A stretch of 64,000 nucleotides of DNA, from NCBI GenBank assembly GCA_040219235.1, contig JAVJSV010000012.1:806001-870000 (forward strand). Reading direction: 5' to 3'. The position numbers and the translations under genes are program-made. How positions within the stretch are numbered: the first letter of the stretch is position 1; each line of letters begins with the position of its first letter. This DNA is from Rhodospirillaceae bacterium (GTDB taxonomy: Bacteria; Pseudomonadota; Alphaproteobacteria; Rhodospirillales; Rhodospirillaceae). A model generated the notes under the pieces. That model worked only from the letters and a program-made list of their open reading frames with translations. It was not told where the DNA came from and made no database searches. This document shows, in pieces, positions 28,350-44,798 of the stretch.

Positions 28350-28361
28350 TAGGTACTAAAT

Positions 28362-28982
28362 ATGGCTGAGGTTGTTATGAGCAATGAGGTGCGCGTTCTT
28401 AAGCCCGTCAAGGCGACGGCGGAAACTCTAAAAGGTTATGGCTATCTGATCGGCGAGCCAGGCATCAGCGTGCTTGACAAGATTGATTTTTACGGAACCG
28501 ATGTCGTGGTCACACAACCGGCAGCGTTTCATGGTAATGATGACCTTTGCTTGAATCTCGTGTCCTTTAATCCGCGCCCCCTGAATGTAAAGTGGATGGA
28601 ATATCACACCAAGCACACCCAGACGTTTATACCCCTCTCGGGCAAGCCGTTTTACATGGTATTGGGCAAGCCAACCGCGCGCAAAGCCGATGGGTCATGG
28701 GAGGAAGGCCAAGAGAACCTGCCTAACTTGAACACCATTCAGGCGTTTGAGTTCGATGGTACCGGCGGTCTCGTTATGCATGTCGGAACCTGGCATGAAG
28801 TGCCGTTCCCGATCAAAGGTGCGACACATTTCGTCTGCATTTGTACCAATGAAACAAATGATAATCTTGAGCAAGGCGATCACAAAGGGGAGTGCGAAGG
28901 CGGCGATTTGTCTAAGCGTAACATCGAAACTCAGTTCGGTGTCACGCTTCAGATAGAGCCAGAACCATCAAATCGTGATTGA
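28362..28982 (+). CDS. Ureidoglycolate lyase (AllA)-like protein
   Basis: A 206-residue protein resembling the AllA/ureidoglycolate hydrolase cupin fold: EYHTKHTQTFIPLSGKPF near residue 85 with a His-x-His, MVLGKP, and GGLVMHVGTWHEVPFPI near 140, which carries the typical W-H segment. In purine breakdown such enzymes release urea or ammonia from ureidoglycolate. No other allantoin gene is in the window, so a related acid-cleaving role in the BKACE unit is at least as likely. ATG 28362 is used; 28377 is also possible. Confidence 0.7.
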   Translation: MAEVVMSNEVRVLKPVKATAETLKGYGYLIGEPGISVLDKIDFYGTDVVVTQPAAFHGNDDLCLNLVSFNPRPLNVKWMEYHTKHTQTFIPLSGKPFYMVLGKPTARKADGSWEEGQENLPNLNTIQAFEFDGTGGLVMHVGTWHEVPFPIKGATHFVCICTNETNDNLEQGDHKGECEGGDLSKRNIETQFGVTLQIEPEPSNRD

Positions 28983-29163
28983 GTAGTAAACAAGGTCGAC
29001 AGCTTACGAATGCACGGTGTCTATTGCACTCGACTGCACTCGATGAGATCGCTGTTCCTCATCAAATCTAACTCAAGCTCTTGTCTTTAGGTGTGCCCCC
29101 TAGAAGGGTATTGTCACCCAGTCATAAAGCTGAAACGGCCATCCAATAAAACGGGAGTCTCTC

Positions 29164-30330
29164 ATGGGTAAAGATGTTGTGATTGTTGGTGCCGGTTTGG
29201 GTGGCCTGACAGCAGCGCTGGCTTTGCAAAAGCATGGCATAGAAGTTCGCGTTTTAGAGCGCGCCGAAGAACTCTCAGAGGTTGGTGCTGGCATCACGTT
29301 GTCGCCAAATGCGACGAAGGCGTTAGAGAGCGTCGGCCTTAAGAGTGCATTAAATGAATTCGCAACCGTTGTGAGTACACAAGGAGTGATCCATTTTCAG
29401 ACGGGTGACGTGCTTGTCGAGAACGACCGTGGTGATGAGCCGTTGCGTAAATATGGCGCGCATTATTACCAGGCCCATCGATCCGACTTGCATGCAGCTT
29501 TGGTTTATCAAGTGCAGCGTCATGACTCAGCGAGCATTACACTAAACGCTGAAGTGAAGAGTGTGTCCGAAGATAGAGGAATCGTTCGGGCTGCGCTCTC
29601 AACCGGAGAGACAATAGAATGTGCAGCGCTCATTGGTTGTGATGGTCTGCGTTCCAATATTCGGCAGTGTCTGTTCGGCGAAGACAACCCTAACTTTACA
29701 GGGCACGTCGCCTGGCGCGGCCTTATTCCCATCGCAGATGGAAACATATTCGGCATGGATCTGTCATCCGGATTGGCCATTGCGCCTGAGAAGTCTTTTG
29801 GATGGTATCCTATTCGCAATGGCACACTTCTGAATTTTGTCGCACTTGCTCAAACCCACGAATGGGCTGAAGAGGGCTGGGCGATTCCGGCAAAGATAGC
29901 AGACTTGTTGAACGTGTATGACGGCTGGGACCCACGCATCCTCGAAATCATCAAATCCACCCCAACGAATGCCTGTTTCAAATGGGGACTGTTTGACCGG
30001 GAGCCCATGGATAATTGGACGGTAGGTGCGGTAACTCTATTGGGGGATGCGGCGCATCCCATGCTACCGTTTATGGGACAAGGGGCAGCGATGGCCATTG
30101 AAGATGGTGTCGTTCTGGCCAGGTGTATTGCGGAGAGCCCCGATTTTGAGTCAGCCTTTGTGCGATACGAAAAGGCCCGCAAAGACCGCACAGCATTTGT
30201 TCAACTGGAATCCCGAGCCAAGGGACTGCGACTGGAAGACAAAGAGACAGAAAAATACAATAAAGCGAAGCATCGCAATGAAGAGTCGGTTGGCCTTTTC
30301 GAGTACAACGCGGCGACAACGCCAATATGA
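29164..30330 (+). CDS. FAD-dependent aromatic hydroxylase-type monooxygenase
   Basis: A flavoprotein of 388 residues of the salicylate/3-hydroxybenzoate hydroxylase type. The FAD loop IVGAGLGGLTAALAL is at residue 6, the second conserved segment ALIGCDGLRSNIR near 156, and the GDAAHPMLPFMGQGAAMAIEDG motif near 295. It would insert one oxygen atom into an aromatic or heteroaromatic acid using NAD(P)H. It is close after the AllA-like gene with the same orientation, but a gap of about 180 bases separates them. A substrate cannot be named. Confidence 0.85.
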   Translation: MGKDVVIVGAGLGGLTAALALQKHGIEVRVLERAEELSEVGAGITLSPNATKALESVGLKSALNEFATVVSTQGVIHFQTGDVLVENDRGDEPLRKYGAHYYQAHRSDLHAALVYQVQRHDSASITLNAEVKSVSEDRGIVRAALSTGETIECAALIGCDGLRSNIRQCLFGEDNPNFTGHVAWRGLIPIADGNIFGMDLSSGLAIAPEKSFGWYPIRNGTLLNFVALAQTHEWAEEGWAIPAKIADLLNVYDGWDPRILEIIKSTPTNACFKWGLFDREPMDNWTVGAVTLLGDAAHPMLPFMGQGAAMAIEDGVVLARCIAESPDFESAFVRYEKARKDRTAFVQLESRAKGLRLEDKETEKYNKAKHRNEESVGLFEYNAATTPI

Positions 30331-30425
30331 AATGGGTTAGACTCAAAAAAGGAGTATTTCCTTGAGGCTGAGCCTCGTATACGTTCTGTTATAATTGCCC
30401 ATAGACAGTGACCCGGGGGGAATTC

Positions 30426-31763
30426 GTGTCTAAGAAGTTTTTTGCCATCACGTCGGCTTTATATGCTGTTTTCTTGTTAAATCCTGCGTTCGCTCAGAAT
30501 TCTCGCGACATTCCATTCGTTTCAGACGAGGTTCATTTGGGTGTTGCCTCTTGTGCCGGTTCCAGTTGTCATGGCGCGTTGGAACCGTGGGCCAACTCAA
30601 CGGTTCTTCAAAATGAATACATCATGTGGGAAGAGGAAGACCCGCATTCCGGTGCTTACAAAATTCTGCTGACAGATGAGTCGCAGCGCATTGCCAAGAA
30701 TCTTGGTTTAGGCCGTGCGGAAGATGCTGACCTTTGTCTCGACTGCCATGCTGATAATGTGCCGGTTGAGCGGCGTGCGAAAGGATTCCAGATTTCAGAT
30801 GGTGTTGGCTGTGAAGCCTGTCACGGTGGTGCGGTGAACTGGCTGGGCCGCCATATTTCCGGCGAAGCAAATCATGCGGCAAACCTTGAAGCGGGTTTGT
30901 ACCCAAGTGAAGATCCCGTTGCCCGGGCAAAGTTATGTCTATCCTGTCATTTTGGTACTAAGGATCGCTTTATCACCCATCGCATTATGGGGGCGGGCCA
31001 CCCGCGTCTTGCGTTTGAACTCGACACGTACACATGGACGCAGCCGGGCCATTTTGTAGTGGATGAGGATTACCGGGCGCGTAAGGGAAGCATCTCGAGT
31101 GTTCAGGTTTGGGCTATCGGTCAAGCCGTGGCCGTAGACTCCCTTTTAGATGCCATGCTTGATCCTAACCGTAACCGGGATGGTATTTTCCCCGAACTTG
31201 TCTTTTTTGATTGTCATGCCTGCCACCACCCGATGTCTAATGTGAGGTGGGTGCCACGGGACAGCCACGAAATTGGTCCGGGTATTCCGCGCATTTATGA
31301 TGCCAATTTGATCATGATGCAGGTGCTGTTAAAGCGGGTTGACCCGGAGATGGCAACCAGCCTCGCTGAAAAGTCGAAAGCGCTGCACCAAGCCTCACTT
31401 CAAGGTTATGACGCGGTGATCAAAGCAGCTGGAGAGCTGAAAGAAGCGACCCAGGGCGTTATTGATCAACTCGCGGCCTACACCTTCACAGCCGCGGACA
31501 CAAAAGCCTTGCTGGTTGGACTCATGAACGAGGGGCTGTCCGGCGAATATGTGGATTATGCCGCTGCCGAACAGGCGACGATGGCCGCCTCCGCAATGCT
31601 GCAGACCATGGTTGACGATAAAATGATTTCCCGGGCTCAGTACATTGAGCTTTCCGGGGTCTTAAACGATTGCTATGCCGCGATCGAAAAAGATGAAGAA
31701 TACAATCCGCGTCAGTTCCTCGCCGCCCTGGAAAACCTACAACGGGCGATGCCGTCGCTTTAG
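30426..31763 (+). CDS. Exported pentaheme c-type cytochrome (c554-like)
   Basis: A periplasmic electron carrier of about 445 residues. The GTG at 30426 is chosen because GGGGGG at 30415-30420 lies just upstream and a clean signal peptide follows (FFAITSALYAVFLL, cleavage after AFA). Five heme sites are visible: an unusual C-x4-C-H at residues 43-49 (CAGSSCH), then CLDCH, CEACH, CLSCH and CHACH. The spacing and many distal histidines (HRIMGAGHP) resemble the cytochrome c554/cytochrome-cd1-like multiheme group. The last 130 residues are helical without hemes. It is convergent with the large decaheme operon, so a partner role is plausible but not proven. Confidence 0.88.
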   Translation: MSKKFFAITSALYAVFLLNPAFAQNSRDIPFVSDEVHLGVASCAGSSCHGALEPWANSTVLQNEYIMWEEEDPHSGAYKILLTDESQRIAKNLGLGRAEDADLCLDCHADNVPVERRAKGFQISDGVGCEACHGGAVNWLGRHISGEANHAANLEAGLYPSEDPVARAKLCLSCHFGTKDRFITHRIMGAGHPRLAFELDTYTWTQPGHFVVDEDYRARKGSISSVQVWAIGQAVAVDSLLDAMLDPNRNRDGIFPELVFFDCHACHHPMSNVRWVPRDSHEIGPGIPRIYDANLIMMQVLLKRVDPEMATSLAEKSKALHQASLQGYDAVIKAAGELKEATQGVIDQLAAYTFTAADTKALLVGLMNEGLSGEYVDYAAAEQATMAASAMLQTMVDDKMISRAQYIELSGVLNDCYAAIEKDEEYNPRQFLAALENLQRAMPSL

Positions 31764-31824: not shown

Positions 31825-34800
31825 TTAGGGTGTTCTGTCTGCGGCCTGTTCTTGCGGCAGCATGGGCAGGTTCAACTCTGATACCGCGTCGATAAAGGCA
31901 TCCAGGTCAATCTCATCTGAAACAAACCAGGGGGTGCCGCGGTCGTTCAGATAGAGCTTCTGCTGCTCCTCTTGTGTGAAGGGCCTGGAGCCTAGACGCC
32001 CAAACACCGCAATCTGATTGCCCGACTCATCGACACCTCTGTCGCGGTCTAAGCCCTTTGAGAGCGCTGTCGCCGGTTTCGCGGTTGGATACCAGGCAAT
32101 AAGTTCGGGTTTGGGGTCTGGGCTGAACCCGTAAAACCCGGGTTGACTGTCGGGTGAGGTTAACTGCACGACCTTCAGTCCGTTCTTTCCGTCGGCCACG
32201 TAGGCAAATAGCGAGGCGTTGGTCGAGCCGACGATAACATCCTGGGCATCCTTAATTTGCCCGTCCGCGGTGAAGGTTTCATAAATTGTTGGTCTGTCGG
32301 GGTGTTCAATGTCAATGATAACCAGGCCATCGCGCCCGGCTGCCACATAAGCAAAGGTGCGCGCCACGTATATGCGGTGTGCCTCTTTCATGGCTACAGA
32401 CGCACCCTGCAAGACCTGTGGGGCCTGAGGGTTGGTGACATCAACGACGTGAACGCCGTTTTGATCCGCGACGTAGAGATAGCGGAATTGCAACGCGGTC
32501 GAGCGTGCACCTTCAAAGGGGATGACGGTTACAAGTTCCGGTTCAAGCGGGCGTTCAAGGTTGACCACTGCAACACCAAAATCACTGCTGATGTAGGCGA
32601 GTTCTCCGGTCAGAGTAATGTGTTGTGCACCGGCCAGTACACCGCCTGGGTTCCACGTCAAGGCGCGTTCCAGGTGATTGTTGCGCGGTTCGCCGTCTGC
32701 CAACGTATCGACATTCACAATAATCAGACCTTCCGATGCATCCGTAACAAAGGCATAGGAATACAGCGGATGAATGGGCTGCTCTTGGTTAACCTCAATC
32801 ATCAGGTCCCGCATGGCCGGATCACTGTTCATGCGCGTCGGTGCAATCGGCTGGTTGGTCGGTAAGGCGATGCAGGTCGCGTTCTGGGAGGAGACTTCGG
32901 TGTCCTGACCCAAGGGGCTGAACGGGGCTGAAATAATGCGTTGAGAAACGCCTTTGTTCGCGATGGAAGCCACATCGTAGACCTTAAGCCCGTCTGCGCC
33001 GCCCGCAGTAAATAGGTATTCACCGCGCAATTGGAGGCAGCCCACTCGGCCGGCACCATGGGTGTAGCTTTCGTAGAGTTTCCGCCCGCGATCTTGATGA
33101 TCTTGGAACCAATCCGGGTAGGCGTATTTGTGCAAATAGCTGCCGATGACGGCTTGAGGTTCGTCCCATTCGGTCACGCGCACGGCTTCAATACCGCCGT
33201 CGCCGCCAATCCATGCGTTATAGCCGACAAAGTTCACGAAGTTTGTGCCGTGCAACAGCAGCTGCGCCATGATCGCATTGTTGTCGTTGTCTTCCGACAA
33301 ATGACAGTCAGAGCACGTTTTGGTTTCGGTCTTGCGCACAGTGTGCGGGAAGTGAGGCGCGAAGGCCTGGCTTGAATACCCGGCCGCCGAGATTGGCGGC
33401 TGCTGAATGTATATTTTTTCGCGGTTGATATTGGTTGAGGACAAGATCAGAGCAGACGTCGATCGTATTGGCGCGATGGTGTTGCCCTTGGTTGTCTGAT
33501 GAATGCCCAATTGGAACATCTGGTCACGTACGACTTGCGGGTTATAGGTGGCGAAGTTTCGTGTTTCACCGCCCTCGTAGTGATGCCGTTCGGTTTTCCA
33601 GTTGGCTTGAATTGGCAAGTGACATCCGGCACAGGACGTCGTCCAGGATAGATGACAGGTATAGCACTCCATTTCATCGGTATCGTGCGCCCGGCTTTCC
33701 TGCGGCACGCCCAAACCCCAGTCCATTTTCGATGTGTCATTGCTCACCAGTTTCGCCCTGGCCGCCTTGGGGTTGTAAGTGTCGTGGCCGGGATTAACCG
33801 AGTCTTTGACCAGACTGAGCGTCCATTCTAAATCTGGGTCTAAGGATGACCGTTGAATGAGTTCGCAATCGCGCACCGTTGTTTCTGGCAAATCGCATTC
33901 GGTTCCGCGCCACTCAAATCGTCTTTTTCCATCCATGACCCGCATCAAGCTGAGGTCTGACCCACCGGGCCGCGCAGCCGGTCCAGATGTGCGCAAAGTT
34001 GGGTAGGTATCGGCATCGCCGTGGCAATCGTTGCATCGAATTTCGATGGCGTTTGCGACTTCGCCATGAATGTAGCCGTTGCCATGGGCGTCTTGGGAAA
34101 AATGACAGTCGACGCAATGCATGCCGAGCTCAATATGAATGGATTTCATATGAACAGCCTTTTCCCACTTGTCGGGGTCGTCATGGGCGATCATCTCGCC
34201 AACATCGTCTAACAGGTTGCCTTTACGGTCCTTCTTAAACACCGCACGAAAATTCCAGCCGTGGCCATGATAATCAGCAAACTGTGTGTTATTAAGCTCC
34301 GGGTTGCGGTCCCATACGGTACGTAAGAAATCAACGTCCCCCCATTTACCGCGGATGGCCGCTTCTTCGGGGTTACGTTCCAATATTTCAAGCATTTCGG
34401 CGCTTGTCGGATACTGCTGTTCTTCAGGCCACATCGCCGGGGCATCAGCTTCGTAATCCCACATGGTGTAGCCCAGCATGGAATTCACGAAAATGTTTGG
34501 CTGATGCATATGACAGACCATGCATTGGCTCGTCGGGATGGCACGCGTAAAGGCGTGTTTGATCGGGTGCCCGGATTCTCCTTTGGGAATGACCGGGTCC
34601 ACACTCGCGCTTTCGCCCATATGACCATACTTGGCATAGGGGCCAGAGTGATCCGGTTCACGATCATTGGCATAAACCACATGGCACGATGCGCATCCGG
34701 AGGACCGGTAGTCGCCCGGTTGATCATTCGTGCCCAAAAACCAGGTGAAGGGGTCATTGAGCCGCGTCTTGTGAATGTTGATGACCGGTACCGCGATGCG

Positions 34801-35670
34801 GAGTCCGGTTCCAGGGCCACGGTTAGACTGGCGGATATCAGGACGGCCCGGCTCTTCAAGACGTTGTAAGCTGCCGACCAGTGTTGCGACATTGGGCAGG
34901 CCGATTTCAGGGAAAATATTGAGGATGTTGCGGCCACCGCGTTCAAATACCCGGAAGACATCGCCGGGTGGGATGACCTCCCAGGCAGGTAAGGGGTAGA
35001 GTTGAGGCAGAATCCCTCTTTCTTCTGTCATCCATGGGTCAACCTGACCTGGACTCTTAATGGTCGCAGGATCCCCTTCATGGGTGTAGGCCGCGCCCAG
35101 AATGTAATTTTTATAAGGTAGAATTCCGTTGTTATAGGCGGCACCCCCCCACAGCATGGCGCCTGTGGCCATCAAGCTGCGCTCTGCGGCCTGGATGACG
35201 GGGAGATGGCATGATCCGCAGGCCGTGCGCGCGACCCGGTAATCTGACGGGTTAATGAAGCGGACGTACTCGGGACTTTCCTTGTTCAGCAACGTATAAG
35301 TGCGTTCGGGGTTGGCGCTATGCGGGTAATGCCAGGTTTCAGGGTAGAGCGGTTGAACATGTGCTTTTTCCTGCGCTGCGCGATAGGCGGGGACGCCTTT
35401 CATCGCATTTGCAGGCGCCCGGACGCTTGGATCACCACCGTGGCAATCGGCACAGCCAAGCACAACAGCCTCACTTATATGCATTGTCTTCTGATCAGAG
35501 TCCGTGTGGCAGGTTATGCAACCGGCGCTCATCGCATCAGCTTGATCCCAGGTTTGAAATTGAGGAGCCGGAGGATAATAGGGATAGGTGACAGAACGCG
35601 GCTTCTCTCCATCGGCGGCATGGGCAAATCCGGCGACTATAAGGAAAACGGCTGTGAGACAAAAACGCAT
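31825..35670 (-). CDS. Large decaheme cytochrome c with C-terminal LVIVD beta-propeller
   Basis: An exported protein of 1281 residues with an N-terminal signal (FCLTAVFLIVAGFAHA). Ten C-x2-C-H heme sites are counted, with first cysteines near residues 51, 73, 151, 326, 383, 519, 546, 669, 680 and 786. From about 870 to 1190 there are repeats with GLKVYDV, GLIIVNV, GVAVVNL, GVHVVDV, GLVIIDI and GLKVVQL, the pattern of LVIVD propeller repeats. Such propellers are usually on the cell surface. It is the last gene of a seven-gene operon that also has a beta-barrel, so it is probably the outermost electron carrier. The natural electron acceptor or donor is unknown. Tail length and motif order fit no named cytochrome that I know. 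Confidence 0.9.
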   Translation of the reverse strand: MRFCLTAVFLIVAGFAHAADGEKPRSVTYPYYPPAPQFQTWDQADAMSAGCITCHTDSDQKTMHISEAVVLGCADCHGGDPSVRAPANAMKGVPAYRAAQEKAHVQPLYPETWHYPHSANPERTYTLLNKESPEYVRFINPSDYRVARTACGSCHLPVIQAAERSLMATGAMLWGGAAYNNGILPYKNYILGAAYTHEGDPATIKSPGQVDPWMTEERGILPQLYPLPAWEVIPPGDVFRVFERGGRNILNIFPEIGLPNVATLVGSLQRLEEPGRPDIRQSNRGPGTGLRIAVPVINIHKTRLNDPFTWFLGTNDQPGDYRSSGCASCHVVYANDREPDHSGPYAKYGHMGESASVDPVIPKGESGHPIKHAFTRAIPTSQCMVCHMHQPNIFVNSMLGYTMWDYEADAPAMWPEEQQYPTSAEMLEILERNPEEAAIRGKWGDVDFLRTVWDRNPELNNTQFADYHGHGWNFRAVFKKDRKGNLLDDVGEMIAHDDPDKWEKAVHMKSIHIELGMHCVDCHFSQDAHGNGYIHGEVANAIEIRCNDCHGDADTYPTLRTSGPAARPGGSDLSLMRVMDGKRRFEWRGTECDLPETTVRDCELIQRSSLDPDLEWTLSLVKDSVNPGHDTYNPKAARAKLVSNDTSKMDWGLGVPQESRAHDTDEMECYTCHLSWTTSCAGCHLPIQANWKTERHHYEGGETRNFATYNPQVVRDQMFQLGIHQTTKGNTIAPIRSTSALILSSTNINREKIYIQQPPISAAGYSSQAFAPHFPHTVRKTETKTCSDCHLSEDNDNNAIMAQLLLHGTNFVNFVGYNAWIGGDGGIEAVRVTEWDEPQAVIGSYLHKYAYPDWFQDHQDRGRKLYESYTHGAGRVGCLQLRGEYLFTAGGADGLKVYDVASIANKGVSQRIISAPFSPLGQDTEVSSQNATCIALPTNQPIAPTRMNSDPAMRDLMIEVNQEQPIHPLYSYAFVTDASEGLIIVNVDTLADGEPRNNHLERALTWNPGGVLAGAQHITLTGELAYISSDFGVAVVNLERPLEPELVTVIPFEGARSTALQFRYLYVADQNGVHVVDVTNPQAPQVLQGASVAMKEAHRIYVARTFAYVAAGRDGLVIIDIEHPDRPTIYETFTADGQIKDAQDVIVGSTNASLFAYVADGKNGLKVVQLTSPDSQPGFYGFSPDPKPELIAWYPTAKPATALSKGLDRDRGVDESGNQIAVFGRLGSRPFTQEEQQKLYLNDRGTPWFVSDEIDLDAFIDAVSELNLPMLPQEQAADRTP

Positions 35671-35678
35671 ACTTGGCC

Positions 35679-37499
35679 TTAATAAGTGAGTATCAAATTG
35701 AAAAGTACAGAGTAAAATTTGTCGCCGCTGCGGTCGGTCGCAAATAGCTCTTCAAACGCCCCGCCGCCCGACAACATGGCGCCCGACGCTCTCAGCACGA
35801 TGTTCTGTGTAAAGTTAGGCCGGTAAAGCAAGGATACGGACGTATCCCAACCAATAGACTTAGAGGTCAGAGGTTGGTTACGCGCGACTTCTACGATAGG
35901 TGATTCAGCAAAACTGATGTGATTGATGTTGGCAAAGACACGCAGTTCGGGAAGCACATCGAAATCAGCCCCGATGCCAAGCAGCACCGTTCCGGGGTTA
36001 AGAAAATTAGACTGCCCCTGTTCCTTCGAGGACCTTAGCGAGTTGAGGAGCCCGTTACGCCCCGATAACACAACACCGCCACCGCCGATGAGCGGAACCG
36101 GTTGGCGTATCCAATAGCTGGTGTCTGCCCCTGCAAATTGCGGGTTCTCGAAAATGGCATCGAAGCCTTGAGCCTTGTCATCAAAGGGGTCTTTGTCACC
36201 GGAAGCATACAGCCCCTGTGCTCTTAGGCGTATCCAATCAAAATCTATGGACGGTTCAACGGCGACAAACCATGATTCAATGTCCGCTTTCTCTTCCTCG
36301 AAAAAAGATGTGAAGCTGTTGGCTGATATGCTTCCTCTTGCCAGGTAAGCGGCGTGGGTAAGGTTGAAGCGGCCAAAATGGCCATCGCCGTTGAAGCCGA
36401 AGTAGGTCACGTCATAATTAAAGCCGCGTTCGGTTCCGAGAGACGCTGGACGCTCTAAGAATCCGTTTTCGTTAAAATATAGTTCATCGTTACCTTCGCG
36501 GTTACGGTTGTGTGCAACGATTCCCTGCACGGTATAACCCACCACCGGCCAATCCTGGCGGTATACGTTGGCGAAAAGGACATCATCATCGCGGATGCGC
36601 TGGCCAATATCGTTGAGTCCAGAGTTGGTGTCTTTTTCCAAGCGCCGGAACCAACCAGCATTGTATTGCCAGATATTGTTGTCCCGCGTCCCAAACAGGC
36701 GGATGCCAAGCTGTTGATCTTGGAAAAGAAAGCCGCGGAAATCGAGTGTCACCGGTTGAATGCCGACTCTGATGGAATCAAAGTCGTACCGGTCAGAGAC
36801 GTTACGTATATGATAATCGACAAACGCTTCTTGGAGGGCGATGTGGCCGTCTTCGCGGGTATCCCCTTGGGCCGGGTTGATCAGTAAGGCCCGGTTTTCG
36901 TCAGCCCAGACGTGGTTGTAGTTTAGGACGGGCGTGAGGCGTATCTCCCAATCAGGGGGCTTGAAAGCCGTGTCGCCTTTGATGAAAGACACCGAAGTAA
37001 TTAAATTCTGATTGAATATCGTTTGGTCTGTTTGACCGAATAAATCAATTGACCCGGGTCTGGCCCCGCCCTGCGGCCCCACGGGCGTGGGAATGCCACG
37101 CGGTTCAACGACGGTGTCGGATATGATTAGCAAGTTGACAAACCAGTCATCGAACAGTGGGCGATCCCCTTTAAGGGTGTTCTGGTTGTAGGGGTCCCAC
37201 CAGCGTTCATTCACGCCAATCGCTTCCACCAGACGCCACCGGTCTGGCACCGGTATGGTCTCTCGGGGCAAACTGCGTGCTGGCGGGGCAACGGCTGATG
37301 GATCAATTTCAGGGAGCGAGCGCTTTTCTTCTCTGCCCGGGCGACGGCGTTCTTGTGCGAGTTCTTCATTATCCTGAACGACCGGCCCTATGGACTCTGG
37401 TCCGGCACCGGCCACTTCGGTTTGCGCATTGCCGTCTGCGGCAATGGCTATCAAGCTCAGCAGAAAGCCGCATGTAGATAAGTTTATTTTCCTGCGCAT
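35679..37499 (-). CDS. Outer-membrane beta-barrel, putative electron-conduit porin
   Basis: 606 residues with a signal peptide, a proline/charged linker to about residue 95, and then many alternating amphipathic strands rich in aromatic and polar residues. It ends in NLILTY, an aromatic-terminal strand typical of outer-membrane barrels. It shows no N-terminal C-x2-C motif of MtrB-type porins. It lies between a decaheme propeller cytochrome and a double GlcG-like protein, so it may insulate hemes across the outer membrane or act as a substrate pore. Start and stop are in tight contact with neighbours: a 16-base overlap with the upstream gene and eight bases to the next. Confidence 0.7.
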   Translation of the reverse strand: MRRKINLSTCGFLLSLIAIAADGNAQTEVAGAGPESIGPVVQDNEELAQERRRPGREEKRSLPEIDPSAVAPPARSLPRETIPVPDRWRLVEAIGVNERWWDPYNQNTLKGDRPLFDDWFVNLLIISDTVVEPRGIPTPVGPQGGARPGSIDLFGQTDQTIFNQNLITSVSFIKGDTAFKPPDWEIRLTPVLNYNHVWADENRALLINPAQGDTREDGHIALQEAFVDYHIRNVSDRYDFDSIRVGIQPVTLDFRGFLFQDQQLGIRLFGTRDNNIWQYNAGWFRRLEKDTNSGLNDIGQRIRDDDVLFANVYRQDWPVVGYTVQGIVAHNRNREGNDELYFNENGFLERPASLGTERGFNYDVTYFGFNGDGHFGRFNLTHAAYLARGSISANSFTSFFEEEKADIESWFVAVEPSIDFDWIRLRAQGLYASGDKDPFDDKAQGFDAIFENPQFAGADTSYWIRQPVPLIGGGGVVLSGRNGLLNSLRSSKEQGQSNFLNPGTVLLGIGADFDVLPELRVFANINHISFAESPIVEVARNQPLTSKSIGWDTSVSLLYRPNFTQNIVLRASGAMLSGGGAFEELFATDRSGDKFYSVLFNLILTY

Positions 37500-39358
37500 A
37501 CAGCCTGCTCTCTTGAACCTAGAAACGGAGAAAAGGGACAGTTGACGTAGCGCAGGTTCACACCCCCCACAAACAAAGTGTCAGCACGCTGCTCGGGCGG
37601 CGCATTTCCGACGCCGGTGTTGAGCACTTCTCCGGCATTGTGCAGTCCGAGGAACGAAATCATGTCATCCTGGTCGATGCCGTCGCCAGACACGCCAATG
37701 CCGCCGATGAGAACGCCGTCACGAAAAATGGGAACACTCCCTGGAAAGATCTGTAAACCATTTGCCAGGCGTGTCGGCATTGGACCCGGAGCAGCCTCAG
37801 ACTGTGGCAGAGCGGTGCAGCCTTGAGGTGGCGGTGCACTGCCATCAAGCCTAGCAACAATATCTGGCAAAACCAGATCCAATTGTAGTCCGGTATTGAA
37901 CGGGCTCCATACATCAAAAGGCACCGAGAACGGGCCATTGGGATTGCCGTTGATGCCGTCGGGATAGAAGGGGCGCGACAGGTTGCCGCCGGAGCGGTCG
38001 GCAAACGCGATGCCATCCGCCAGCGCCGTCGGCCCAACAAATGACTGCACCGCTTCGACATAGCTGCTTAGAGGTGGCAGCGTTAGAACGCCTGGCAGAA
38101 GTTCTACGGCAGGCACAGCCGATAATTCGGCTGCCGTTGTGGGACGGGACGCAAAAGTTGCGGTCCGGGCTTTTTGCAAAGAAACATCTGTGCCGAAGAT
38201 TGGGGCATCAGGGGTGCGCGCAATAGCAAGAATGTTGGCTTCAGAATCAACAATAGAGACAGACACCTGGGCATGGCTTCCCAATGGGCGGCGGATTTGT
38301 GCGCGTGCTTTGAAGGCGATTTTTAGGGCCTCGGATAACAGTGTCGCCACCTCATCTGACGACAGTCCTCCAGACAGAGGTGCTGGCGCGAGACTGTCGC
38401 GTGGCGCATAGCGGTTGCCCCCGTTGCCGTCACTCAGCACAAAAACGTCTGAGCCTGGAACGACGATGCCGCTGCTTAACGTAATGCCTGACGCGTCTGC
38501 CCCATATTCAAGGCCAGCCCGGCGACCGGGCGGGGTGTATCCTGCAACAGCGATATAATTTGCCGGGTCTAAAGTTGCTGTTGACCCTTTGGCTCTTAAG
38601 AAGCGGGAATCTATATCTGCATAACGGAACAGTTTGCCTTCAACGGTAATTCGGTGGCCTTTGATATCTTCCGGCGGCTCGAAACCTTGTTGAGCTGCTA
38701 TTGCAATCATTTCATCAAGATCGCGGTCAAAGTCACCAACGGATAGATCAAGGCCGTACAGACCGTCCGCAAGTACGCCGACACCTCCGACAACCCGGCC
38801 ATTTTTATACAGCGGCAGGCCCCCGGGGTCTGCAGATAAGCCGAGTGGTGAACGTCGCGGCCCACCTCCTAACGTCTCACCAAAGCGCATCATGTCAGAG
38901 CAGGGCAGTTGACTGAACTGGACGCCAAATAAAGGGCCGCCCGGCTGCCCACGTTCTCCCGGATTGAAGTTTTCTTGGACAATCTGGCTGGCTGTGCGTG
39001 TGGTGAAAGCGTTGCCTGATGACGACAGGTAAGCGCCAGTAATGGCCTTAGAGATGGCAGCTAATGGCGTGATCGGCAGCGTTAACCCCTCGAGGCCGTT
39101 ACCTGATGGGATGCCGCGTCCTGAGGAAATAGTGGTTTCCGGCATGGCTGCTGGGTCCATGGCGTAGACACCAAGTACGTTACCCACGCGGTCAACGACT
39201 GCAATCACTGCATCATCGGCGATGTGGGCCGACGCCTCAGCCACGGCTTGAGATATAATTTGATCAACGTCTGTTTGCGTCAAGAACTGGCCGAAGGCGA
39301 GGCTGCTCGAGAATAAGGAAGCTGCAAAAGAGGTGGCTTGTATAAACCGAAGGATCAT
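37484..39358 (-). CDS. Exported double GlcG/HbpS (DUF336)-domain protein
   Basis: 624 residues with a signal peptide. Two homologous domains are seen: one with VAVVDRVGNVLGVY near residue 50 and LPLYKNGRVVGGVGVLADG near 205, and a second with SIVDSEANILAIAR near 365 and VPIFRDGVLIGGIGVSGDG near 560. This strand-plus-loop pattern is the GlcG/HbpS family, some members of which bind heme or cobalamin. Each domain appears interrupted by a large insertion, making it three times longer than a single-domain member. Inside a heme-cytochrome operon, heme binding or hand-off is a natural guess but not shown. It overlaps the small upstream gene by ATGA. Confidence 0.75.
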   Translation of the reverse strand: MILRFIQATSFAASLFSSSLAFGQFLTQTDVDQIISQAVAEASAHIADDAVIAVVDRVGNVLGVYAMDPAAMPETTISSGRGIPSGNGLEGLTLPITPLAAISKAITGAYLSSSGNAFTTRTASQIVQENFNPGERGQPGGPLFGVQFSQLPCSDMMRFGETLGGGPRRSPLGLSADPGGLPLYKNGRVVGGVGVLADGLYGLDLSVGDFDRDLDEMIAIAAQQGFEPPEDIKGHRITVEGKLFRYADIDSRFLRAKGSTATLDPANYIAVAGYTPPGRRAGLEYGADASGITLSSGIVVPGSDVFVLSDGNGGNRYAPRDSLAPAPLSGGLSSDEVATLLSEALKIAFKARAQIRRPLGSHAQVSVSIVDSEANILAIARTPDAPIFGTDVSLQKARTATFASRPTTAAELSAVPAVELLPGVLTLPPLSSYVEAVQSFVGPTALADGIAFADRSGGNLSRPFYPDGINGNPNGPFSVPFDVWSPFNTGLQLDLVLPDIVARLDGSAPPPQGCTALPQSEAAPGPMPTRLANGLQIFPGSVPIFRDGVLIGGIGVSGDGIDQDDMISFLGLHNAGEVLNTGVGNAPPEQRADTLFVGGVNLRYVNCPFSPFLGSREQAVCAGK

Positions 39359-39774
39359 TGATCAATCACCATATAACCGGACTTCAGACGCCCGTTCTCT
39401 AATGTGTATGCGATTGTGAACACGACCGGGAAAAAGCTTAAAGACACGGCCTCATCAATAATCTTAAACGTCAGTGTGCCGTCATCGCTTGCAACAAAAC
39501 CCGCATCAACAAGATCGGACCTGGTCTCACTCCAGGAATGCCACGCTCCGCCCGCCAAGCGGTGGTAGGGTGTATTGTTCTGAAACCGCGCCATGACATG
39601 GGTTGATACGGGCAAATCTTCTTTAAGGTTGATCGTAATTTGAAGCGGCGAATCTGTTTCCGTCGCTTTTACACGGCCCAGAAAAGTACCATCATATGAC
39701 AGTGTTAAGTTCTCTGCATGTGCAACCTGCGTGCATATCAGGCTAACGCATAGGATGTAAACTAGGCGGCCCAT
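39355..39774 (-). CDS. Small exported beta-rich protein of unknown function
   Basis: 139 residues from the ATG at 39774, which overlaps the stop of the FHA-decaheme gene (TGATG). A clear signal peptide (LVYILCVSLICTQVAHA) precedes a short mature protein of alternating strands, without cysteines or heme motifs in the mature part. I do not recognise the family; an Ig-like or thiosulfate-carrier-like fold is possible. The longer frame to 39837 lacks support. Overlaps on both sides show it is translated with the conduit genes. Confidence 0.65.
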   Translation of the reverse strand: MGRLVYILCVSLICTQVAHAENLTLSYDGTFLGRVKATETDSPLQITINLKEDLPVSTHVMARFQNNTPYHRLAGGAWHSWSETRSDLVDAGFVASDDGTLTFKIIDEAVSLSFFPVVFTIAYTLENGRLKSGYMVIDQ

Positions 39775-41534
39775 CAGCGCGACGCACCAATAAGTGTTTG
39801 GATATTGCTTCGCCGTGTGGGAGCGTGACCATCCCACCCTTGGCTTGCGGTGCTCTGCAGGGGTTTTAGGGGCGGCATACCATGGGTGTGAAAATCGTGG
39901 CAGGTCACACAGGTTGAAGGAACACGGTTTGAAGCAATTTCACCGCCATGACAGCTTTGGCATGTCTCAATAGCGGGCATGAGAACGTCAGATGAAGTTG
40001 TTGATGACTCTACGTCATGGCAGGTGCGACACCCAACATCGCTGTGGCTGCCATGGTCAAAATTAGCCTTCGGGTACCATTGTTCAGTGATGTAGACCGG
40101 TTCTACCGTCCATATCTCCGTTGATGTGTTCTCGACAATTTCATGGCACTCGCTGCACTGTCCCTTGCCAAAGCGGCCATTCAGAATTTCTGCTGATTTT
40201 TCATCAGCCCAATTCCGCGCTGCGGCGCGGTCTTCGTCTTTTAAAGGGCTGCCCGGTAGACGCCTGATGATGATTGGTGCGTCAGGTTCCTCGTACCCGC
40301 CGCGCAGTGCTGCGGCATTATAAATGTCAGAGACTTGCATGAATAATTCTTCTGGCTGGCCGTGAATTAATTCGCGGCCCTGCAATTGAACGTCAAAGCT
40401 CAAGGTATGGCATTGATGGCAATGACGATCAAAACTGATGGGCAGCATGGACACGTTGCCTTCGTCCGATACATGGCAGTCCCGGCACCCTAAGTCGATA
40501 ATACCTCGTTTTGGATGTTGGACGCCGGCCTCTCTAAGGTGGTCTGCATGTGAAAACTTTAGGCCTGAATTTTCCAGTGGTGGTTCAGAGGCGCCAATGG
40601 CTCTCTCGCTTGACATCACATGAAACGCGGCATCGATAATCACCGTGGGCTTGAATTCCGGATGATCGGTACCGAAATCCCGAACGTTTCTTAGTGTGGT
40701 AGAGGTTTCTTGTTCGGTAAGGTTGGCATGGCAGTCCACGCAAAAGCCTTGATCATTGCGGGCAACAGTTTGATTACCTTGATGCTCTTTGTGGCAACTC
40801 TGACATTTGTCGTTTTCAAACGATGCAGTTGGAAAAAGAATAGGGTTGGTATGATGTTCTATGGCCTGATGGCACGCCACACAGGCTGTGTCTTGAACCG
40901 GAACAAAAGGCTTCTCATGGCAGACATCACAACTTTCGCCAAAAAACTTATGCGCGCCCGAGATTGATCCGCTGGTCCAGAATGCTGTGGGTCGTACCGC
41001 CGCATCATAGGTGCTGGCTTGCTCAACATTCACAACAGCTTCGGGCATAAACCAAGACGTGACCATAGGACCGATCAGAAGTGCGACCAGTACTGTAACG
41101 AATGCCGCCCAAGACCATGTTCTTTTGGTAAAGCCAACGGACTCAATCTCAGTTTTTGCTGTCGCTTTCAGGTTCTCTAGTTCGTCCCCGAGTTGGCTAA
41201 TAAGCTCAACAGAGACAGTTATATCGGTGTCGTTTTTTTTCGGCTCAACGGTGACCTTAAATGGCCCGATATTGATGTCATCAAGTTCGGTAATCTTGGC
41301 AATTTCAACGAGGTTGTCATTGATTGATAAGGGGCCGCTATTGAGGGCCTCTATATAAACCGCTTCAGACCGCACCGTAATGCGGGCATGCTCAAGAAGA
41401 ACACGCGGGTCCACAAGTTGAACGTCGCATGCTGTGCTGCGTCCAAACAGAATGGACTCACACTCAATCCATTCCTCCCGAACGGCAACATCACCGCGGT
41501 TTCTTCTCGTAACATGTTTGATAAGAGTCTTCAC
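39774..41534 (-). CDS. FHA-domain, single-TM decaheme cytochrome c
   Basis: 586 residues from the GTG at 41534, placed after the stop of the upstream gene; an ATG at 41570 would overlap that gene by 29 bases. Residues 1-100 look like an FHA phosphopeptide-binding domain (SILFGRSTACDVQL, then EHARI). A single membrane segment follows near 141-163 (AAFVTVLVALLIGPMV). The rest, from about 200, has ten C-x2-C-H sites (CDVCH, CVACH, CQSCH, CVDCH, CRDCH, CHQCH, CSECH, CRTCH, CQSCH, CVTCH). The topology would place FHA in the cytoplasm and hemes in the periplasm. This combination suggests phospho-control of an electron relay; that is inference. Confidence 0.88.
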   Translation of the reverse strand: MKTLIKHVTRRNRGDVAVREEWIECESILFGRSTACDVQLVDPRVLLEHARITVRSEAVYIEALNSGPLSINDNLVEIAKITELDDINIGPFKVTVEPKKNDTDITVSVELISQLGDELENLKATAKTEIESVGFTKRTWSWAAFVTVLVALLIGPMVTSWFMPEAVVNVEQASTYDAAVRPTAFWTSGSISGAHKFFGESCDVCHEKPFVPVQDTACVACHQAIEHHTNPILFPTASFENDKCQSCHKEHQGNQTVARNDQGFCVDCHANLTEQETSTTLRNVRDFGTDHPEFKPTVIIDAAFHVMSSERAIGASEPPLENSGLKFSHADHLREAGVQHPKRGIIDLGCRDCHVSDEGNVSMLPISFDRHCHQCHTLSFDVQLQGRELIHGQPEELFMQVSDIYNAAALRGGYEEPDAPIIIRRLPGSPLKDEDRAAARNWADEKSAEILNGRFGKGQCSECHEIVENTSTEIWTVEPVYITEQWYPKANFDHGSHSDVGCRTCHDVESSTTSSDVLMPAIETCQSCHGGEIASNRVPSTCVTCHDFHTHGMPPLKPLQSTASQGWDGHAPTRRSNIQTLIGASR

Positions 41535-41541
41535 GAGAGCG

Positions 41542-42363
41542 TTACCAGTAATAAAAAACGACAACCACATGGGCGATCAGTGCCGCTAGGGTTGCAAATG
41601 TGAAGGGGACGTGAACGTAAAGCCATATCTGCAAAAGACAACGAAGCCGGATATCTTGGCGAATACGGCGCAAAAGACCTTCCTTTTTGGTCAGCCGGGT
41701 TAGTAGCTTGCGTCGCGTTGCTTCGTCGGAAGACTTATCAGACTGTTCAATGAGTTTTCTTGCGCGGCGTGTTGCGCAGTTGGGATGATTTAATGAGAGC
41801 TGTTGTAACAGGTTTCCACCGATGACCGTATTTTGCACGGCATTAATTGCTGCCTGTCCAGTTTGGTCCTCGACCTTTAAAGCGATGCTGTTGAGTTCAC
41901 GGTCCAATTCAGCAATTTGGCTTAGCATCATTTCGGTGGTGAGTCCGCGCCTGTTCTCAGACAGTAAACGCGGGAAGCGCATATAGAAATACAAACCAAC
42001 ACCGCCACTCAAGACGACGATAAGCATTAAGAAGTAGAGCAGGGTGTGGATGTTAAGCCCAAACTGAAAGCCGCTATGGAATGTGGAAACAACGACCAGG
42101 GCTAAGCCTAAGTAGATGTGGGCCGAGGCCCAATCTTCCATGCGAATTGCGCCTTTGCCATACGCCCGTCTGCGAACACCATACCAGGCGAGCCATATCA
42201 TAATTCCTGCCGCAATAACGCCAAGGGTGTAGCCCAGCCAGGTTCCTCCGTTTGGACTCCCGATCGGCGTATGCAGAACGTATAGCCCGCCCGTGATGAT
42301 CACGAGCAGAAGCGATGCTTTTAAGTAGCGAAGGTTTCGATAAATAAGGAGGGACTCGTGCAT
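41542..42363 (-). CDS. Membrane cytochrome-b-like electron-transfer protein
   Basis: 273 residues from the ATG at 42363; the longer frame is in the previous gene. Three to four hydrophobic helices lie in the N-terminal half, some with histidines that could hold heme b (SAHIYLGLAL, STFHSGFQFG, IHTLLYFLML). A charged cytoplasmic loop with two helices follows, then a last helix pair with LYVHVPF and ALIAHVVVVF. The histidine pattern suggests a two-heme b-type protein linking a soluble reductase to periplasmic hemes. It does not match FdnI, NapC or ferric reductase exactly. It lies between the reductase fusion and the FHA-decaheme gene. Confidence 0.65.
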   Translation of the reverse strand: MHESLLIYRNLRYLKASLLLVIITGGLYVLHTPIGSPNGGTWLGYTLGVIAAGIMIWLAWYGVRRRAYGKGAIRMEDWASAHIYLGLALVVVSTFHSGFQFGLNIHTLLYFLMLIVVLSGGVGLYFYMRFPRLLSENRRGLTTEMMLSQIAELDRELNSIALKVEDQTGQAAINAVQNTVIGGNLLQQLSLNHPNCATRRARKLIEQSDKSSDEATRRKLLTRLTKKEGLLRRIRQDIRLRCLLQIWLYVHVPFTFATLAALIAHVVVVFYYW

Positions 42364-42377
42364 ATGCGGGTGATCCC

Positions 42378-44798
42378 TTATCGATTCAAAGTCGCAAGGT
42401 TCATGAATTTTTCCGGGCTCACCCGGGCTGCCGCGCCTGTGGGGCAGGCATTCACGCACGCGGCACCGCCAGCTAAGTCCTTACACATGTCACATTTTAC
42501 GGCTTTTTTTGCGATACGTTTTGTCGCCGGGGCGGTCTCATCGCTGTTGGAAGCCGGTTGCTCCTGTTCAAACGATACAGCATCCCCGGGAGCTGGTCCG
42601 CGGCCAAACATTAGCCATGAGAATAAGTTAGATTTCGCCTCCGGCGGAGAGGCGAGCTGAATAACGCCATAAGGGCAAGCGCTCTCGCAGTTGCCGCAGC
42701 CGATGCAGCTGTCGTCAATATAAACTTCACCGTCCGGTGCGCGGTGAATGGCATCGGGCGGGCAGTCTGACATGCAGTGAGGGTGCTGGCAGTGGCGGCA
42801 TGATGTTGGGACGTGAATGGACGCAAATGAAGGGCCGGCCTCGCGGTCTAACCGTGATAAGCCGCCGTGGGTTTCGGCGCAGGCCTTTTCGCAGTTGTCA
42901 CAATGGACGCACAGAGTCTCGTCAATAAGTAAAACGTCAGTGGCTTCGCCAACACCCTGTTCAATTAGAAACTGAATGATGTTGCCTGCTTCCGGGCGCG
43001 ATTCCATCTGTTCATTTTGGCGAAGGCGTGTCCGGAATTTAGCTTCAATACTGCTGCGTATCGCAATGTTGTCATTCATCACCTTGTTAAAGGCATCGCC
43101 TGACAAACAAATGGTTTCTGTATTGTTGGCGGCGCGAACTGTGGCCGAGCGGGGCATATCAGAGAGCAGCGCCATTTCGCCAATATAGTTGCCTGACGGC
43201 ACATAACTCAGCACGATGTCGCGTCCGCCGATACGGCTTGAAACCGTGCAAGAGCCAGACCGGATCAAATGCATATGATTACCAATTTCGCCTTGAGCGA
43301 ATATGGTTTCACCCGCCTTAAAGTTCTGGATTTCAGCGGTTTCCACCAGTTCTTCCAGGTCACTTGCCGGAACACCGGGGGTCATATGCATCTGGATCTG
43401 TCTTAGAATTGAGGTCTTGTCCAGCGCCCGCTTCACGCTCTGCACGGATTGAATCAGTTTCAGCATTGTGCGTCTTGGCGTTTCGAAGACAACACAATCC
43501 GTTACCGCGACAACAGTTGCTGTTCGCCGCCGGCCCGAGATCAATCCCATTTCACCGAAGAACTCGCCTTCGCGCAGTTTAACAACTTGGCTGGGATCGT
43601 TTTGATTGATTTGAATGCCGACTTGGCCGGTGAAGACAGTGTAGAATGTGCTAGAATAGTCATTGCGTTCAAAAATGGTTTCCCCCGCTTTGAAAGCATG
43701 AATTTGTGATTCCAGCATGGTTTCCCGCAGCAGCAACGTGTTGAGCTCAGAGAAAACGGGGATAGTCTTGCGGATTGCCGAGAGCACGTCATCGACTTCG
43801 ACGTCTCCCATGACGGAAAACTTTTCGATTAGCAAAGGTTCGTCAGCCGGAGGTATGTCCTCGCCATTAATATAGGCGGTAACCTCATAGCCTTGATTCA
43901 TCGCCTGTTTAATCAGCGGGTATCCGGCAAGGGCGCCGACAATATAAAGTCCGGGGACATTTGACTCGTAGGTTGGGCTGACTTCCGGCAAAACCTTGGG
44001 ATCGTCACTCGGAAACTCCACACCGCAAGCCTCGACAAACCTGCGCGGCGGTGATGCACCCAGACGTGCAATAATACGATTACATTTAACAGTTAACTCG
44101 CCGTCCGGTGTCTCAAGCACGATACCGTCCGGTTCAACACGGACCGGGTTTGATTCAAAATAACATTGCAACTGGCCTTTATCGATGGCGCCATTAATAA
44201 GTGTTAGGTTACCTTGTTTTGCGCGCGCAAATTCAGCCCGCCGATTTACGATGAAAACGGTATTTTGCTTGGCGAGGGCGACCGCGTTTTCAATTGCGGC
44301 ATCGCCAGCGCCGACAACAACAATCGTTTCGTCTTGATATTCGTCCGGATCGTCTAATTGGTACTGCACAAGGGGGAGGTCGCCACCCTCGCAGCGCAAG
44401 GTGTTGATATTGCCCTGCAAACCGATAGACAGAATAACGTTTTCTGCTTCAACAACGCTGCCGTCGGCAACTGTTACCTTAAAATGATCAGACGTACGTT
44501 CAATTTTTACAACATCAGAATTGTAACGGATTTTGGTTCCATAGAAGTCGAGGCCCTCATCCCACTTGGCAAGAATGTCTTCCCGCAGACCGGCGCGGAA
44601 GGATAAGTCTGAACGCAACGGCAATATGTCCGGCGTAGCCATGACAAACTTGCCCTTTTGGTATTTGTATATCGTATCCGAGGCATGATCTGCACGTTCC
44701 AGCAAGACGTGACTCATGCCAATCTTGGCGGCGTGCGCGGCAGCACTCAGACCAGCGGGTCCAGACCCGACGATCGCAACTTTAAGGCGTTTCGCCAA
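42378..44798 (-). CDS. Reductase fusion: FAD/NAD(P), two cNMP-binding domains, four [4Fe-4S] motifs
   Basis: About 806 residues. A TTG at 44798 is chosen over TTG 44813 because GGGGG at 44807-44811 sits seven bases upstream. Residues 5-325 are a TrxR-like flavoprotein: FAD loop GSGPAGLSAAAHAA and NAD(P) loop VVGAGDAAIENAVAL, but no redox C-x2-C, so it is more like ferredoxin-NADP reductase. Residues 355-600 hold two cNMP-binding domains (GEFFGEMGLISGRRRTATV and GEMALLSDMPRSATVRA). Residues 640-800 have four ferredoxin-type cysteine sets, including CVHCDNCEKAC, CIGCGNCESACP and CDMCK. It would oxidise NAD(P)H and pass electrons to the membrane protein encoded next. This fusion is the cytoplasmic entry of the conduit. 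Confidence 0.87.
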   Translation of the reverse strand: MAKRLKVAIVGSGPAGLSAAAHAAKIGMSHVLLERADHASDTIYKYQKGKFVMATPDILPLRSDLSFRAGLREDILAKWDEGLDFYGTKIRYNSDVVKIERTSDHFKVTVADGSVVEAENVILSIGLQGNINTLRCEGGDLPLVQYQLDDPDEYQDETIVVVGAGDAAIENAVALAKQNTVFIVNRRAEFARAKQGNLTLINGAIDKGQLQCYFESNPVRVEPDGIVLETPDGELTVKCNRIIARLGASPPRRFVEACGVEFPSDDPKVLPEVSPTYESNVPGLYIVGALAGYPLIKQAMNQGYEVTAYINGEDIPPADEPLLIEKFSVMGDVEVDDVLSAIRKTIPVFSELNTLLLRETMLESQIHAFKAGETIFERNDYSSTFYTVFTGQVGIQINQNDPSQVVKLREGEFFGEMGLISGRRRTATVVAVTDCVVFETPRRTMLKLIQSVQSVKRALDKTSILRQIQMHMTPGVPASDLEELVETAEIQNFKAGETIFAQGEIGNHMHLIRSGSCTVSSRIGGRDIVLSYVPSGNYIGEMALLSDMPRSATVRAANNTETICLSGDAFNKVMNDNIAIRSSIEAKFRTRLRQNEQMESRPEAGNIIQFLIEQGVGEATDVLLIDETLCVHCDNCEKACAETHGGLSRLDREAGPSFASIHVPTSCRHCQHPHCMSDCPPDAIHRAPDGEVYIDDSCIGCGNCESACPYGVIQLASPPEAKSNLFSWLMFGRGPAPGDAVSFEQEQPASNSDETAPATKRIAKKAVKCDMCKDLAGGAACVNACPTGAAARVSPEKFMNLATLNR

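Follow-up and report, generated by a model that had tools for sequence, protein, structure and literature searches.

A candidate electron-transfer system of two modules, related to PCC4, in Rhodospirillaceae bacterium and other Pseudomonadota

What is the function of the seven adjoining genes at 31825-44798 in the 64,000-nucleotide stretch of Rhodospirillaceae bacterium contig JAVJSV010000012.1 (the window), and do they form a path for electrons through the cell envelope? The seven open reading frames (ORFs), all on the minus strand, encode in order a fused reductase (red), a membrane protein (b), a cytochrome with an FHA domain (FHAdeca), a small exported protein, a protein with GlcG/HbpS-like domains (GlcG2), a predicted beta-barrel (barrel), and a cytochrome with a propeller (decaLVIVD). 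Another cytochrome gene, penta, is their neighbor (Table 1). An earlier note on this DNA had read the seven genes as one operon and as a complete route from NAD(P)H to the cell surface. The gene system is real and conserved. It is a variant of the PCC4 type of cluster, which is known from genome surveys. It consists of two modules: the input module (red, b and FHAdeca) and the outer module (penta, GlcG2, barrel and decaLVIVD). It is fairly probable, if far from certain, that they constitute a PCC4-related system for electron transfer across the envelope. This reading draws on homology for the input module and on co-inheritance for the outer module, and the function of both is a prediction.

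The two modules are inherited almost all-or-none. Among 398 Pseudomonadota genomes, the barrel was found in 12, and b scored over 300 bits in exactly the same 12. The threshold for b was passed by 27 of the 398 genomes, which include three at 233-252 bits and 12 at 37-59 bits besides these 12. Full-length decaLVIVD is present in 11 of the 12 barrel genomes; four further genomes with matches to short pieces of it (E 5e-15 to 3.5e-11) were left uncounted. The same pattern is seen among 199 genomes of the family of genome G087, which is probably Sphingomonadaceae, judging from named plasmid matches. Barrel and decaLVIVD share an identical set of 71 genomes, 70 of which also have b; the lone genome without b is listed as 67% complete. 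No genome of the 199 has b (E <= 1e-20) without the barrel (Fisher P 1e-53 for the co-occurrence, with no phylogenetic correction). The genes of the 70 b/barrel pairs are often far apart: the separation is below 15 kb in 31 pairs and 22-28 kb in 3; in 14 it exceeds 40 kb with both genes on one contig, and in 22 the two genes are on different contigs. Distance correlations range from 0.86 to 0.95 inside a module and from 0.76 to 0.88 across the two (19 of 32 entries with all six families at full length). As these ranges overlap slightly and have no species-tree control, they are weak evidence.

One genome shows an unusual arrangement. In G411, the barrel is on contig C1 and decaLVIVD on contig C8 near b; either the core pair is split or the assembly is broken.

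The neighborhood is conserved in related genomes, which removes one of the grounds on which the earlier note said that its reading would be refuted. Scanning a collection of species genomes with a barrel pattern gave 24 loci beyond the window, which by their titles belong to Alpha-, Beta- or Gammaproteobacteria or have no finer classification. The core GlcG2-barrel-decaLVIVD is kept. The barrel is followed by decaLVIVD in 23 of the 24 loci and preceded by GlcG2 in 23, and both exceptions are contig ends. Near the barrel, on contigs several of which are short, red was found in 16 loci, b in 15, FHAdeca in 15, penta in 11, and the small protein in 10. The position of red varies; it comes after the core in L013, L014, L016, and L017.

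Thirteen further loci came from ten more genomes and three plasmids of Sphingobium/Sphingopyxis. In 11 of the 13, penta, GlcG2, barrel and decaLVIVD follow each other directly in this order. The exceptions are L041, with a gap after penta, and L047, where penta follows decaLVIVD. The input module is upstream on the same strand in L041, L042, and L047, and on the opposite strand in L044, L045, L049, L051, and L053. It is elsewhere in the genome in G396, G349, and G214. In G259, it is on the opposite strand at a distance of about 10 kb, and the plasmid record for L052 contains no input module. The system is better described as two modules than as the single seven-gene operon of the earlier note: the halves are separate in many genomes, and penta directly precedes GlcG2 in most sphingomonad-type loci.

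In L051, L052, and L053, the Sphingobium/Sphingopyxis loci, the system is on large plasmids; two of the three records are typed as conjugative and one as non-mobilizable. Directly upstream of the outer module, L051:1-6671 carries a ShlB/FhaC two-partner-secretion gene and then a gene for a hypothetical protein of 2092 amino acids with no Pfam match, which may be an exoprotein. A relative of this protein is encoded directly upstream of the outer module in L053:1-4723. The pair was considered as a general part of the system and rejected, as weaker matches were seen only in L043 (both genes) and L103 (the exoprotein part).

A PCC4 cluster, as defined by He et al. 2017 (PMC5566968), has a porin and an inner-membrane protein of five helices, and its periplasmic cytochromes contain 4, 5, and 10 hemes. 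The motif SGXXG and two motifs WX3HX13H are given there for the inner-membrane proteins of PCC3 and PCC4, and subgroup II of PCC4 adds a pfam13247 gene upstream. The window agrees in these points: b has WX3HX13H twice and SGXXG, and red, a pfam13247 iron-sulfur (Fe-S) gene, lies directly upstream of b. For a direct comparison, four of the twelve genomes with b at 37-59 bits were examined (G280, G022, G177, and G132), and two of their loci, L096 and L099, were used as PCC4-like, a class assigned by gene content only. L096 encodes three heme proteins (5, 4, and 10 hemes), a porin candidate that matches no Pfam family, an FNR-like protein, a cNMP-Fer4 protein, and an inner-membrane protein. L099 has the same set minus the 5-heme protein, and its contig starts inside the porin candidate.

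In hhalign comparisons with L096/L099, the C-terminal half of red (E 1.7e-47) and b (1.7e-16) found relatives, and so did one decaheme and one small cytochrome: FHAdeca (4.2e-17, a local match of 165 columns) and penta, against the tetraheme protein (8e-17, a local match of 196 columns). The barrel shows no detectable homology to the porin candidates of L096/L099 (hhalign probability 0.1%), and GlcG2 and decaLVIVD have no match in either locus. Because red, b, FHAdeca, and penta match while barrel, GlcG2, and decaLVIVD do not, the input half is, by profile comparison, PCC4-like and the outer half mostly different; within the outer module, penta alone has a PCC4-like relative. There are other differences. 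The heme set is 10, 10, and 4+1 here versus 4, 5, and 10 in PCC4, the flavoprotein is TrxR-like and fused here versus a separate FNR-like protein, and GlcG2 and decaLVIVD are extra. The main text of He et al. 2017 (PMC5566968) mentions no FHA, beta-propeller, GlcG, or cyclic nucleotide. The earlier note had not recognized the set of parts as a described conduit. This view is not supported, as the C-terminal half of red, b, FHAdeca, and penta have PCC4-like relatives and a similar-looking class was reported in 2026 (PMC13264449, see below).

In the input module, the Fe-S cysteines of red and the heme cysteines of FHAdeca are invariant. The Pfam domains of red are Pyr_redox, two cNMP_binding, and Fer4, and its Fe-S region matches PF13247 (E 2.4e-10). 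Sixteen Cys, enough for four [4Fe-4S] clusters, are invariant in 12 rows, window included. The flavoprotein part is related to YpdA/Bdr by family and PDB matches and lacks CXXC. Its NRRAEF sequence is presumably an NADPH-type nucleotide site, by analogy with TrxR. For b, Pfam gave a weak sub-threshold match only. WX3HX13H is found at residues 110 and 279 and SGGVG at 151, likewise in 8 other rows of the alignment. A simple hydropathy method gave 4 segments, with the stretch of the first HX13H under the threshold, versus the five helices given for PCC4. FHAdeca matches FHA and c3/c7-type heme families, and its ten CXXCH are invariant in 11 rows. The alignments A5 (of b) to A8 each draw on 8 to 11 relatives, all taken from clean-frame loci.

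Two side observations concern this module. The FHA domain (window 39774-41570) keeps GR and H by eye and is without the Ser before H that is usual in FHA motifs. Phosphothreonine binding is therefore doubtful for it. In two of the three genomes with an input module and no barrel (see below), red and b are joined in one ORF of about 1120 amino acids (L094:3052-6423 and L095:6850-10206), and the cytochrome has nine CXXCH.

In the outer module, penta has four CXXCH and one CX4CH, all invariant in 10 rows; the label "pentaheme" therefore fits. Pfam finds LVIVD and c3/c7-type hemes in decaLVIVD, which has a signal-peptide-like start and ten CXXCH, all invariant in 18 rows. With ten CXXCH in each, the "decaheme" labels given earlier to FHAdeca and decaLVIVD are borne out. 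The decaLVIVD alignment (A2) includes 17 of 23 loci, L003, L005, L007, L008, L014, and L020 being partial or redundant; alignment A3 includes 15 of 23. PDB sequence searches with the barrel and with decaLVIVD gave no match. Structural matches of the decaLVIVD propeller in PDB were generic propellers (AztD, WD40, and others) and were set aside as uninformative about function.

The domains of GlcG2 are HbpS-like by Pfam, and a lipobox pattern is present in 13 of 29 copies. In the Pfam description, the HbpS-like family is heme-degrading. This raises the possibility of an uptake function, in which electrons reduce ferric iron or a heme compound at the outer membrane and GlcG2 acts as the binder. 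A TonB receptor-like ORF, recognized by eye in a locus without barrel (L094:10082-12301), would suit such assimilation. Among the relatives of GlcG2 in PDB are EfgA and an adenosyltransferase domain, so that heme is not implied. The annotation of the three plasmid regions has no iron-uptake gene, and none was found among the seven window neighbors tested. Iron or heme assimilation is very improbable as the role of the system.

The AlphaFold2 model of the barrel has 18 strands at moderate confidence (pLDDT 64, pTM 0.67), with a 71-residue loop unresolved. The earlier prediction of a beta-barrel thus did not fail. Foldseek placed AlgE first (E 8.1e-16, TM-score 0.63 by target and 0.45 by query, root-mean-square deviation 9 A), followed by OprD/Occ porins. 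The model has the porin-like alternation of long loops and short turns, which places loop 433-503 outside. The barrel alignment (A1) comprises 20 of the 24 loci (L008 left out for an interrupted frame, and L003, L007, and L014 for redundancy). Mean conservation is 0.84 in loop 433-503 and 0.59 in the other outer loops, versus 0.69 in strands and 0.81 in the short inner turns. Because this loop is so much more conserved than the other outer loops, a partner-binding or plugging role is suggested.

The proteins would be connected as follows. NADPH would reduce the FAD that the YpdA/TrxR-like domain of red is expected to bind. From there, electrons could pass through the four [4Fe-4S] clusters to the diheme b membrane protein, across the inner membrane, and to FHAdeca in the periplasm. 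It is supposed that penta ferries them across the periplasm to decaLVIVD. At the outer membrane, decaLVIVD, the AlgE-like barrel, and GlcG2 may pass them to a substrate outside or to one entering via the barrel. The two cNMP-binding domains of red would probably gate the NADPH input step by cyclic AMP (cAMP).

Export of reductant by a heterotroph, with electrons from NADPH going outward, appears more likely than uptake. With the opposite flow, Fe(II), Mn(II) or another external donor would supply the outer part with electrons, and quinone or NADP+ would receive them from the inner part. PCC4 was reported from iron oxidisers and water filters and drawn with electrons moving inwards by He et al. 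2017 (PMC5566968). The outward direction of the earlier note is an inferred one. One relative of the window, L013, comes from a metagenome-assembled genome (MAG) titled FeB_7. Against inward flow, RuBisCO was not found in the window's genome (99.85% complete), and the fused reductase has the NADPH-type site. The system is also common in a family that is probably Sphingomonadaceae, which are mainly aerobic heterotrophs. Inward flow is considered improbable.

Control of red by cAMP is plausible. Both cNMP phosphate-binding cassettes of the window copy match the pattern, and the PDB relatives of this region are domains of cAMP/cGMP-dependent kinases. A CpdA-like gene directly flanks FHAdeca in nine sphingomonad-type loci (L042, L044, L045, L049, L051, L053, L101, L102, and L103), seven of which represent all seven genomes of family f8 whose input module was examined. 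In L104, it lies about 4.8 kb away. Because CRP-like sites in the window number 3 versus 2.05 expected, there is no evidence of CRP control.

Several observations weigh against the proposed outward path or parts of it. The input module is found without the barrel in 3 of the 398 genomes, and it thus exists on its own. In G154, barrel and b are present and decaLVIVD was found on no contig; the distance from the barrel to a contig end is 333 bases. A Sphingopyxis MAG, the source of L023 (completeness not given), has the outer module and no b. The co-occurrence statistics are uncorrected for phylogeny, and the published PCC4 model has the inward flow described above. A lipobox pattern is present in 1 of 32 copies of decaLVIVD, a weak one, and its heme region is predicted at pLDDT <50, with the propeller alone usable. 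The 18-strand model of the barrel resembles small-molecule porins and does not show how a heme chain would pass through it. As to cAMP, 8 of the 12 rows, the window among them, have both cassettes intact, 2 have one (including Sphingobium L051), and 2 have none. Matches to a CpdA-like gene were absent from the window, from the 13 loci tested of the species collection, and from L041 and L047. Because cassettes are incomplete in some rows and the CpdA-like gene is confined to sphingomonad-type loci, cAMP gating is a prediction best supported in one lineage. A cAMP-gated, NADPH-driven export of reductant by heterotrophs is a tentative and unlikely reading. It would run over four [4Fe-4S] clusters, two b-hemes, and some 25 c-hemes and lead to a propeller cytochrome of the outer membrane, paired with a porin-size barrel.

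The resemblance to porins also suggests another function. The system may be a redox enzyme with its own porin, in which the barrel admits a specific compound that decaLVIVD, perhaps with GlcG2, reduces in the periplasm with electrons supplied by the input module, and no electrons cross the outer membrane. The best structural matches of the barrel, AlgE and then OprD/Occ, are in line with this, as are the HbpS-like family of GlcG2 and a local similarity of decaLVIVD to ExtM of a selenite/tellurite operon. The strong conservation of loop 433-503 hints at a partner or plug, not a simple pore. The 21-strand barrel ExtI of Geobacter belongs to a cluster with which a single-cluster strain still partly reduces Fe(III) and Mn(IV) oxides (PMC6148476, in the part available); barrel size alone therefore does not exclude electron transfer. 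Such a periplasmic enzyme is possible, if rather unlikely. For the electron-transfer reading, the complete route proposed in the earlier note holds in part, in that a reductase and inner-membrane, periplasmic, and outer-membrane parts are co-inherited as one system. Its last step, to the surface, is hypothetical: the barrel is an AlgE/OprD-like prediction, and decaLVIVD may sit on either side of the outer membrane.

Other described systems share parts of this design. MtrCAB, PioAB, and MtoAB also combine a barrel with ten-heme cytochromes. MtrB is wider than the 18-strand barrel predicted here, and MtrB is absent among the best 50 of 791 Foldseek matches of the barrel. The cytochrome here is FHA-anchored, and no lipoprotein cytochrome of the MtrC type is seen, as the rare lipobox in decaLVIVD indicates. 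The FHAdeca profile gave one local match to 6r2q_A (E 7.9e-5); we take 6R2Q to be MtrCAB, and the listing for 6r2q_A names another molecule. Geobacter extHIJKL, in the part available of PMC6148476, is similar in its mid-size barrel (ExtI, 21 strands), pentaheme, and non-cytochrome outer partner. ExtI is not among the NCBIfam matches of the barrel up to E 0.1. For the selenite/tellurite Ext operon (PMC5877670), the local match of decaLVIVD to ExtM scores 74 bits versus a cut-off of 800, and decaLVIVD is not of the ExtM family.

A similar layout is found in karst MAGs. In the part available of PMC13264449, a first group of 11 porin-cytochrome clusters has a 4-5 kb decaheme gene adjoining a porin of about 20 strands, and 7 of the 11 have a ferredoxin-NADP+ reductase nearby; the same paper suggests that porin-cytochrome systems may serve heterotrophs for the export of electrons. 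The decaheme next to a porin and the reductase nearby are as in the window, the comparison being of layout and not of sequences. The decaLVIVD gene is 3.85 kb and the barrel has 18 strands here versus 4-5 kb and about 20 there, and no FHA decaheme, GlcG, propeller, or cAMP part is named in that part of the paper. Judging from layout, this first group of clusters is probably of the same kind as the outer half here. Apart from this class, no description of the system was seen among the papers listed in the literature searches and, for Sphingomonadaceae, no paper linking multiheme cytochromes with extracellular electron transfer. PMC11475568 does not mention propeller, LVIVD, or any of four taxon words.

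In the window, the tight packing noted earlier agrees with the ORFs, as the named parts do with Pfam matches and CXXCH counts. The small protein gene and GlcG2 overlap by 4 bases and GlcG2 and barrel by 16, and 8 bases separate barrel and decaLVIVD. With longest-ORF starts, the first three junctions overlap by 82, 29, and 64 bases. Because relatives start further downstream, these larger overlaps are probably annotation effects; red probably starts at TTG 44798 instead of 44813, and b at ATG 42363 instead of 42459. Neither the barrel nor the small protein matched a Pfam family. A scan upstream of red found no terminator, and the one promoter-like site equals the mean of shuffled sequences. Beside penta, plus-strand genes at 27384-30330 encode a BKACE beta-keto acid cleavage enzyme, a ureidoglycolate-lyase-like protein, and an FAD monooxygenase-like protein; no link of these genes to the operon was seen.

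Table 1. Genes of the two modules and the small exported protein in the window.
Gene	Position	Strand	Product	Remark
red	42378..44798	-	flavoprotein of NADPH type, YpdA/TrxR-like and without CXXC; two cNMP-binding domains; 16 Cys, enough for 4x[4Fe-4S]	longest ORF to 44813
b	41542..42363	-	inner-membrane protein, diheme-b-like, of PCC4 type; two WX3HX13H motifs + SGxxG	longest ORF to 42459
FHAdeca	39774..41534	-	N-terminal FHA domain + one predicted transmembrane helix + ten CXXCH	longest ORF to 41570
small protein	39355..39774	-	small exported protein	longest ORF to 39837; matched in 10/24 loci
GlcG2	37484..39358	-	exported, two GlcG/HbpS-like domains	lipobox pattern in 13/29 copies, not in window copy
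barrel	35679..37499	-	predicted outer-membrane beta-barrel, 18 strands, AlgE/OprD-like; highly conserved 71-residue loop (433-503)	
decaLVIVD	31825..35670	-	1281 amino acids; signal-peptide-like N-terminus, ten-heme region (~50-790), C-terminal beta-propeller (LVIVD)	
penta	30408..31763	+	exported pentaheme cytochrome (4 CXXCH + CX4CH)	convergent neighbor

If the electron-transfer reading is correct, a large cultivable bacterial group carries a complete and seemingly unstudied electron path from NADPH to the outer membrane. Because the modules are inherited almost all-or-none and are often unlinked, its function can be tested by single knock-outs. The porin-sized predicted barrel would probe the lower limit of width for an outer-membrane barrel in electron transfer. 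Whether a second messenger controls an electron conduit could be tested directly through the cNMP domains and, in one lineage, the CpdA-like gene. Were gating by cAMP also true, this would be an electron conduit under direct second-messenger control at the protein level, and cAMP-gated export would be present in about a third (71/199) of the genomes sampled from a family that is probably Sphingomonadaceae.

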